64,000 nt of DNA from the NCBI GenBank assembly GCA_944389505.1, contig CALXMP010000004.1:62001-126000 (forward strand), read 5' to 3'. This document shows, piece after piece, positions 45,467-47,744 of this stretch (position 1 is its first letter; every line of letters starts with the position of its first letter). The position numbers and the translations under genes are program-made. The stretch comes from an uncultured Spirochaetaceae bacterium (GTDB lineage: Bacteria > Spirochaetota > Spirochaetia > Sphaerochaetales > Sphaerochaetaceae). The notes below the pieces were generated by a model, which did no database searches, was not told the DNA's origin, and was given only the letters and a program-made list of their open reading frames with translations.

Positions 45467-45490
45467 TCATTATTGTCTAAAGCATTAGGG

Positions 45491-45570
45491 CTGTCGCATA
45501 AATCGTTTTGAGAATCGGCAACGCCCATCAATAGGCTACAGAGCAGGACTTTGGTCCTGCTTTGTGCATT
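45491..45570 (+). repeat. 80-bp repeat, left copy (inverted partner at 47631)
   Basis: This 80-base sequence matches the reverse complement of 47631-47710 at 70 of 80 positions by my alignment. It begins CTGTCGCATAAATCGTTTTG and ends at TTTGTGCATT. Inside it lies the hairpin that ends glgC. With the transposase remnant near the right copy, it is best read as the left end of a decayed insertion sequence. Confidence 0.8.
45542..45564 (+). terminator. glgC terminator inside the repeat
   Basis: AGCAGGAC and GTCCTGCT form a perfect 8-bp stem with the loop TTTG, followed by TTTG. It lies 75 bases past the glgC stop. Confidence 0.65.
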
Positions 45571-45620
45571 AATTAATCTTATTGGAAGAAATTACGCTAC
45601 TGTGCTCAGACAGCAGAAGG

Positions 45621-45639
45621 CCGCCGCATTTTGCGACGG
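45621..45639 (-). terminator. Hairpin after the lipoprotein gene at 45674
   Basis: CCGTCGCA and TGCGGCGG form an 8-bp stem with one G-U pair and a three-base loop, 35 bases past the lipoprotein stop on the minus strand; CCTTCTG follows. Confidence 0.5.
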
Positions 45640-45673
45640 TCCCTTCCGTCCGTTTTAATTAACCGGTTATTGT

Positions 45674-46990
45674 TCAAGGGGCGTATACCTTGAACATATC
45701 CTGTGTTGCATTTGCGATTCCTGTATCGGAGACACTTCTGCCTTCGTAAGTATTGTTTGAAAGAGTTATGGATACATTTGAAAGTGGTTCCGTTCCTCCG
45801 TTTCCAAGCCACACAAGAATCTTCTCTGTATTGACATCTGAAGGATTGCTTCCTGAGAATGTGTTATCACTGATGGTTACTTTAGCATTGTCGAATTTTG
45901 CACGGCCGATAGCACACTCGTTGAAGCCATTGAATGTGTTTCCTGTATATACGAAATCTCCTGTATTATTTGTACCCTGCACACCGATTGAGGACCATCC
46001 CATATCATTAAACGTACATTCTCTGACTGTAAGATTTCTCATCGTGCCAGTATTCATACCTTTTGAATATTTCTCAAATGTACAATTCTCAACTACAACA
46101 TCTTCTAGACAGCCGAGAGTTTTCATACTGCCTGCGTTAATAGCGAAATTAGCTGAATTGATATTGTCTCTCATCGTATCGCTTCCGATAAAGTTGCAAT
46201 TACTCAAGGTCAATCCATGTATGCCATAGTCTGATGTATTTGCATTATCTATATTGATTTCCAGGTTGCTTTCCTTGAATTCAAAATTGCAGATACTAAG
46301 ATCAGAAATATACACGATGCTTGTATAGCTGGTTTTATTCTGATTCTCAATCTCCTTGATATTGTTCCAGCTATTGCTGTTATCGATAGAGACACCGCCT
46401 TTGAATACAGCGCCATCAACAGCGTAAAGCATTACATCGTTGATTCTGCGATAAGCATAGATACTATAATTGCTGACAGGCTCTTCTGGATGTTCGTTTA
46501 CGTATGCAATATAAGTATCTGCATCAATAGTTCCATACAATGGATGCTTTTCATCCATATCCCCTATCAGCCTCACATTCGACCTCTCAACGCTCTGTCT
46601 GAAGACAATCTCCTGATTGTAGGTACCAGACTGGAATATCACAGTCACGCCATCCGGAATCATATCAAGAACCTCAATGGCACTTTCCGGCGTAACGACA
46701 ACATATCCGCCAGCGGGAACAACAGCCATCTTGGCCTCCTCGGCTGTCGATACGAATACCGCACTGCTTATAGGCGTCTTGGTCTCTTCATCACACCCAG
46801 AGCATCCATATACCGTATAGAGCGTTTTTCCGGACACATCATATCCGACGAATTCATACGAGTGCGAATGCGATGGCTCGTTATTGGGCTGCGCCCACCA
46901 GAGCAGACTCATATCATACTGAGTACAAGAAGCTAAAACGAGAAGTAATACCCCCCCTCTCAGTAGTATACCGATTAGATGTTTTCTCAT
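45674..46990 (-). CDS. Surface lipoprotein, beta-helix type, with G7 in signal-peptide codons
   Basis: 438 residues from ATG 46990, behind GGAGGG; an upstream in-frame start at 47026 has no ribosome site. The signal peptide MRKHLIGILLRGGVLLLVLASC gives a lipidated Cys22 and goes on as TQYD, like the split gene at 32624. The bases for Arg11-Val14 contain seven G in a row, so slippage would frameshift the gene at its start. A CSGC pair near residue 60 recalls the CxxC module of the lipoprotein at 1460. Residues 150-420 read as right-handed beta-helix repeats (VVVENCTFEKYSKG, LTVRECTFNDM). The gene is more AT-rich than its neighbours and lies between two inverted repeats. Role unknown. Confidence 0.78.
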   Translation of the reverse strand: MRKHLIGILLRGGVLLLVLASCTQYDMSLLWWAQPNNEPSHSHSYEFVGYDVSGKTLYTVYGCSGCDEETKTPISSAVFVSTAEEAKMAVVPAGGYVVVTPESAIEVLDMIPDGVTVIFQSGTYNQEIVFRQSVERSNVRLIGDMDEKHPLYGTIDADTYIAYVNEHPEEPVSNYSIYAYRRINDVMLYAVDGAVFKGGVSIDNSNSWNNIKEIENQNKTSYTSIVYISDLSICNFEFKESNLEINIDNANTSDYGIHGLTLSNCNFIGSDTMRDNINSANFAINAGSMKTLGCLEDVVVENCTFEKYSKGMNTGTMRNLTVRECTFNDMGWSSIGVQGTNNTGDFVYTGNTFNGFNECAIGRAKFDNAKVTISDNTFSGSNPSDVNTEKILVWLGNGGTEPLSNVSITLSNNTYEGRSVSDTGIANATQDMFKVYAP

Positions 46991-47378
46991 ATCACCCTCC
47001 GCATCTGATAATAATAGTGCGTCCATCTGCTTTCAAGGAAAAATCCCTTGATAGCATAAAGAAATACATAAAATTTATGGTATTTTTCTATTGCAGCTTT
47101 TCTATCACTGCAGACGATAATAGGTAGCATCCATCTGAAACGAAACTTTCCATCACAAAAGTCATATAGAATCACAGCTTACACAAAAATTATTTTAGTA
47201 CTTAATCAATATAATTATATAGGCAAAATATTATGAAATACTATAATTTACGTTAAAGAATTATCAGGGAATCAAGGACTTCAACACCCGCTCTATGAGT
47301 AAATCCATGACAATCTCAGGCCCTAACTAATTCGGGAAGTCAACATCGCGTTATCGCGCTGCATGGCTCCTTACCAGC
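46991..47378. other. AT-rich control region of the lipoprotein and non-coding stretch
   Basis: The stretch upstream of the lipoprotein start is strongly AT-rich from about 47040 to 47270 and contains several possible -10 boxes, none with a convincing -35. A 62-codon frame on the minus strand (47175-46987) has no coding character. No other feature was found. Confidence 0.4.
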
Positions 47379-47630
47379 AATGCCACATTCGGCTACCGCA
47401 GATTCCGCCCACATGGGATTAAGAACATCTAGACGGAATGGATGATCCTATGCATGGCCTGGAATGCTCTCAGGTATTCCATACGGCTTGCGAACAGCCG
47501 GGCAGGCACTCCTTTCTGGTTCAGTATAGAGCAGGAAGCCAGCTGATCCTCAGATGAATACCGGATTCCACTCCTGCCAAAGGGATATTCTGTCCCGGAT
47601 GGCCGGATTCTAACTCTTGTATGCTGGTTA

Positions 47631-47710
47631 AATGCACAAAGCAGGACCGAAGTCCTGCTCTGTAGTCGATTGGTAGGTGCTGCCGACTCTCAAAACGATT
47701 TATACAACAG
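47631..47710 (-). repeat. 80-bp repeat, right copy (inverted partner at 45491)
   Basis: Reverse complement of the left copy with ten differences. Six of the differences lie in the middle third; the hairpin (47640-47659) and the segment ATAAATCGTTTTGAGA are kept. On the minus strand it follows purL and its hairpin can end that transcript. Confidence 0.8.
47640..47659 (-). terminator. purL terminator inside the repeat
   Basis: AGCAGGAC and GTCCTGCT form an 8-bp stem with the loop TTCG, followed by TTTGTGC on the minus strand, 85 bases past the purL stop. Confidence 0.6.
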
Positions 47711-47744
47711 ATCCTTGCTTTTTCTTAGCTGGCAGCAGGATAGC

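Follow-up and report, generated by a model that had tools for sequence, protein, structure and literature searches.

Between glgC and purL of an uncultured Spirochaetaceae bacterium, two 80-bp repeats face each other across a lipoprotein gene, and the question is what these repeats are: the two ends of one mobile element with the gene as its cargo, the arms of an invertible switch, copies of a dispersed terminator sequence, or parts of separate elements. We analysed a window of 64,000 nucleotides (assembly GCA_944389505.1, contig CALXMP010000004.1, positions 62,001 to 126,000), together with the rest of its genome and other genomes of the same genus. Our reading, to which we give a probability of roughly 0.93, is that both arms are outward-facing right ends, which belong to IS1182-family insertions that are independent of each other and opposite in orientation, one a 156-bp derivative and the other a truncated, dead full-size copy, and that the family replaces stem-loops and supplies hairpins of its own. 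The locus itself is largely ordinary and the feature is a known kind of element; what deserves most interest is how richly natural sites in this spirochaete genus document hairpin replacement.

The facing repeats

The repeat was confirmed exactly as the initial annotation had described it: once 47631-47710 is reverse-complemented, it is identical to 45491-45570 at 70 of 80 bases, and 2,060 bases separate the arms. Identity between the arms is 88% and the longest identical run they share is 18 bases. When the entire 2.12-Mb genome is searched, the second arm is recovered with E = 1.6e-22, and a 26-base core has two matches in the window and none in 100 shuffles. The outer ends of the arms lie slightly beyond the coordinates first given, at 45488 and about 47714. 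Each arm carries a terminator-like hairpin just 3' of glgC or purL, as had also been noted, and both folds are strong: -23.2 kcal/mol on the glgC side (z -5.9; equalled by 0 of 200 shuffles) and -21.3 kcal/mol on the purL side (z -4.6). As RNA both have the form GCAGGAC-(UUCG-like loop)-GUCCUGC. The statement that the arms bracket only the lipoprotein gene and non-coding sequence was too narrow, as they also enclose the other half of an element (45571-45643), the start of an ATPase gene (about 47233-47378) and a transposase remnant (47379-47540). The features of the locus are as follows:

45488..45643, minus strand: MITE-like, internally deleted IS1182-family element, complete in 156 bp, with right end GGGCTGTCGCA at 45488 and left end GCGACGGTCCC at 45643
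45488..45570, minus strand: left arm, an IS right (3') end unit, by homology to intact IS right ends
45535..45567, plus strand: terminator-like hairpin GCAGGAC-TTTG-GTCCTGC within the right-end unit, read by transcription out of glgC
45619..45643, minus strand: left IS end with a GC-rich hairpin (GACCGTCGCAAAATGCGGCGGCC), by homology to IS left ends, read by transcription out of the lipoprotein gene
45674..46990, minus strand: lipoprotein gene (open reading frame with lipobox LVLASC; start taken at MRKHLIG), outside both elements
47233..47378 (approximate), plus strand: 5' part of an SbcC/RecF-like AAA ATPase gene (LKNYQGIKDFN...SGPNxFGKST), truncated and frameshifted, with the IS remnant following directly
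47379..47714, plus strand: 5'-truncated IS1182-family element with the last ~53 transposase codons (including an in-frame TAG), the 3' non-coding part and the right end
47631..47714, plus strand: right arm, an IS right (3') end unit, 31 bp past the purL stop
47636..47664, minus strand: terminator-like hairpin GCAGGAC-TTCG-GTCCTGC, read by transcription out of purL

The parent element

Intact copies of the element were retrieved by searching the genus with the right-hand stretch of the window. They are 1.91 kb long, are found in five same-genus genomes (G009, G017, G018, G021 and G033) and can be aligned from end to end. Their transposase ORF is 529 aa; one intact transposase (L021) scores 305.6 bits with the NCBIfam IS1182 model (cut-off 270) and also passes Pfam DDE_Tnp_1_6. 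All five copies have the terminal inverted repeats GGGACCGTCGCA... on the left and GGGGCTGTCGCA... on the right, both of which are also present in the 156-bp element of the window. With the IS1182 family (Pfam PF13751/PF05598, NCBIfam NF033551) the genus element shares a DDE transposase ORF of 529 aa, a length of ~1.9 kb and short terminal inverted repeats, GGG(A/G)C(C/T)GTCGCA, whereas in the window only the 3' portion of one copy and a deletion derivative are left. The subgroup, taken as sequences with at least 80% identity to the query transposase, is found only in spirochaete MAGs, and its next relatives are at most 40% identical.

The 80-bp unit is present once per intact copy, at the right end, 3' of the transposase, where it closes with the terminal repeat GG(A/G)GCTGTCGCA. 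The opposite (left) end is different: it reads GGGACCGTCGCAAAAAGCGGCGG... and forms its own hairpin. Since each intact copy has the unit once and its left end differs, the pair in the window is made of two right ends and does not match a left end with a right one. The proposal that the arms are the ends of an old insertion sequence with the lipoprotein gene as cargo is therefore correct as regards old IS ends, but wrong in assigning both to a single element; they belong to two insertions, the left one complete in 156 bp.

No intact transposase copy was found in the 2.12-Mb assembly of the window, where the right-arm remnant is the sole transposase trace, so current mobility in this genome cannot be claimed. 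Solo right-end units lie elsewhere in the same genome, at G000:C4:183982-184053 (L049) and G000:C5:56860 (L050), 17 and 24 bp past the stops of unrelated genes.

The left and right elements

The glgC and lipoprotein genes converge on the 156-bp element, which lies 21 bp from the glgC stop and 30 bp from the lipoprotein stop. Compared with the intact IS copies its right end is 80-87% identical (L041_R, L043_R, L044_R, L045_R and L048_R) and its left end 74-83%; the part from 45571 to 45643, read on the opposite strand, is the IS left end. The stretch around the left IS end (45590-45660) also folds, at -27.9 kcal/mol (z -3.8). The element 45488-45643 is short and non-coding and has both ends of the autonomous element, as is required of a MITE. 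Further complete copies of the short form are absent from its own genome, where the other matches are right ends only, and because that genome has one complete copy we call it MITE-like and not a MITE family. Other mini-elements, of 83 to ~324 bp and each of a different length, are found in G014, G018, G035 and G037. Bacterial MITEs and the pneumococcal SPRITE repeats (PMC10969869) are likewise short and non-coding, with both ends of a known IS and a terminator-like hairpin, whereas the mini-elements of this genus have a low copy number (one complete copy here) and vary in length within the genus. The 156-bp element had no match in the phage records searched, and an Rfam search for structured RNA gave no match at E<=1. 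A 136-bp palindromic mini-element in another genome (L164, G029:C34, 661-796) is made of two outward-facing right ends.

Concerning the right element, its transposase fragment is 79% identical to residues 476-528 of the intact transposase (E=8e-22), while the score of the fragment alone in Pfam is 15.1, below the cut-off of 25.1. Its DNA, over 333 bp, is 82% identical to that of the sister genome G019 and up to 90% identical to the intact copies. The adjoining ATPase fragment matches Pfam AAA_23 in the G019 copy (E=2e-4) and AAA_15 in the window copy (E=0.004), both below cut-off. One deletion seems to have taken the 5' part of the right IS copy plus most of the ATPase gene. The ATPase fragment is joined to the IS remnant in G019 too.

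The sister genome G019 shares both insertions, including an orthologue of the 156-bp element. Their order and orientation are unchanged and each unit shows its own decay.

The lipoprotein gene

The lipoprotein gene has homologues in eight other genomes of the genus; the orthologue in G019 is 95% identical. The homologue in G038 (56%) is at another locus, between purA and purB, and has no flanking pair of IS ends. The protein matches the model of the anti-phage Hailong protein HalA with E 7e-4 and 18.8 bits, far below the cut-off of 250, and this match is not evidence of that function.

A single or composite transposon, with the arms as its outer ends and the lipoprotein gene as cargo, would agree with the geometry of the locus, as both right ends face outward and such an arrangement could be mobilised; the IS1182 family also offers a precedent in TnSha1, in which sh-fabI is mobilised by a single IS1272 and an additional end (PMC4923244). 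Set against this, the left element is complete in 156 bp with an inner end of its own, the homologues of other species sit elsewhere without paired IS ends, and the only other genome with the arrangement (G019) has it at the same locus. We therefore consider a cargo-bearing transposon very unlikely. A single element with cargo was rejected, as the unit occurs once per intact IS and the left element is self-complete. A composite transposon would need two complete IS copies that move the cargo between them; here the right copy is truncated, and no second site was found where the lipoprotein gene is accompanied by these ends.

It had also been suggested that recombination between the arms could invert the lipoprotein gene, and inverted 80-bp arms 2 kb apart are indeed what an invertible switch would have at its borders. 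Such a switch would be expected to have near-identical repeats and to occur in both orientations; the arms are only 88% identical, with no identical run of more than 18 bp, and the orientation is the same in G000 (the genome of the window) and G019. The upstream region of the gene is inside the arms, and a flip would presumably take the promoter along with it. The suggestion was accordingly abandoned, its probability being close to nil. Two independent insertions on either side of the lipoprotein gene remain the reading that we follow below.

Target sites of the element in the genus

In the IS1182 family, IS1272 is known for stem-loop-replacing transposition: hairpins, often the terminators of genes, are targeted, the stem-loop is deleted and no target duplication is made (PMC5678879, PMC4923244). 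At sites compared in relatives of the window genome, the breakpoint is at the terminator stem. G029 matches the flank of the G009 insertion with 99.3% identity as far as the breakpoint and there starts with AATCCCTGCGGTTGCAGGGATT; the other flank in G009 restarts with ATTATTTTTGC, as does G029 past its hairpin, and the breakpoint is exactly at the base of the terminator stem. The ferritin flank of the G021 insertion is 96-98% identical in three genomes, which show GACCGAGGATGCTTCATCCCCGGTC at the breakpoint; their sequence there reads GACCGAGGATG-CTTC-ATCCCCGGTC, and on this side too the position is exact. For the opposite flank of this IS, G020 shows the palindrome CGCTGTACAATGTACAGCG, which reaches to the breakpoint. 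Both flanks are known for three further insertions; when their breakpoints are projected onto relatives, they enclose a terminator hairpin, abut it or cut it. At the compared sites in relatives a stem-loop is present when the site is empty and absent when it is occupied, and no target duplication was seen; the exact position is tested here by few near-identical sites, and the gene 3' ends of relatives carry hairpins anyway.

In the G021 copy (L041, G021:C23:95597-97993) ferritin and ilvE flank one IS. When the two flanks were joined and used as an empty-site query, no genome had both halves together; the halves are separate in relatives, each with its own breakpoint hairpin. This arrangement suggests either that two IS copies have recombined or that the ferritin side was gained horizontally, given its 96-98% identity in three species.

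As in IS1272/TnSha1 of Staphylococcus, the targets are hairpins, the stem-loop is lost and there is no target duplication. The genus element differs in its hosts, which belong to the Spirochaetota, in the strong hairpins that its own ends contain and in the occurrence of deletion derivatives (MITEs).

There is also a strong bias to the 3' ends of genes. The genus offers 72 usable ends of IS copies and mini-elements; at 52 of them the next gene has its 3' end towards the element (39% expected), and 44 are at most 40 bp from the stop codon of that gene (~8% expected), where the expectation is that of random intergenic positions in the window. At L045, L148 and L169 several short or spurious ORFs make single distances unreliable, and the totals alone were used. 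A large survey reports an excess of IS1182 elements in the gaps between convergent genes (PMC9208149). Three species have, immediately past purA, either the right end of an IS or a hairpin that resembles one: L042 (G025:C13), L338 (G037:C73) and L082/L141 (G038:C10). This site may be a recurrent target or the place of one old insertion.

Probable IS-derived terminators at glgC and purL

In our main reading, an IS of this family transposes by replacing a stem-loop, usually the intrinsic terminator of a gene, without target duplication; each insertion deletes the host terminator and installs an IS-derived hairpin instead. The resemblance of each arm to the terminator of its neighbour would arise in this way, because the IS replaces terminator hairpins and each of its ends has its own hairpin. 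In relatives an ordinary hairpin terminator is found ~15-25 bp past the glgC stop, a position compatible with replacement. No close relative has an element-free junction between glgC and the lipoprotein gene or at purL; in other members of the genus the neighbours of glgC are different, its hairpin is a native one, and purL is located elsewhere. As there is no close empty site, replacement at glgC and purL is presumed: the native terminators were probably replaced in the window genome, and the IS hairpins probably terminate transcription there now. Only short T runs follow the IS hairpins, and a simple T-run terminator scan flagged none of them.

A dispersed terminator repeat of the REP or SPRITE kind, unrelated to any IS, would be another origin for the units. 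Two more solo copies stand behind unrelated genes in the window genome, and one of them (L049) has an orthologue in G019, the differences between G000 and G019 being confined to the loop and parts of the remainder; in this one pair, the unchanged stem hints at retention as a terminator. In several species, however, intact IS1182 elements have the 80-bp unit as their right terminus, and their transposase reads into it, which makes an origin apart from the IS highly improbable. The initial annotation had named many copies after unrelated genes, with no transposase nearby, as the sign of a terminator repeat instead of an element end. Solo copies behind unrelated genes do exist (G000:C4:183982 and C5:56860), but they are themselves IS ends. 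For these copies the two descriptions are compatible, since the IS ends also look like terminators. As a complete account the dispersed repeat is refuted by the intact IS copies, and it remains valid only for what becomes of IS ends later.

Returning to the two insertions, we tentatively propose that in this genus a stem-loop-replacing IS may be a lasting source of terminators: it would remove host terminators between convergent genes and substitute its own hairpin, and the right-end hairpin might then be kept by selection after the element decays. We put the chances of this somewhat short of even.

Implications

For annotation, the locus is a warning that facing copies of one IS end can mimic the two ends of a cargo-bearing element. 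For the genus, the insertions offer a route by which unrelated genes can come to share one terminator sequence. For the family, they extend hairpin-replacing transposition, described in the literature consulted only for the staphylococcal IS1272 (PMC5678879, PMC4923244), to spirochaetes, with many natural empty sites.
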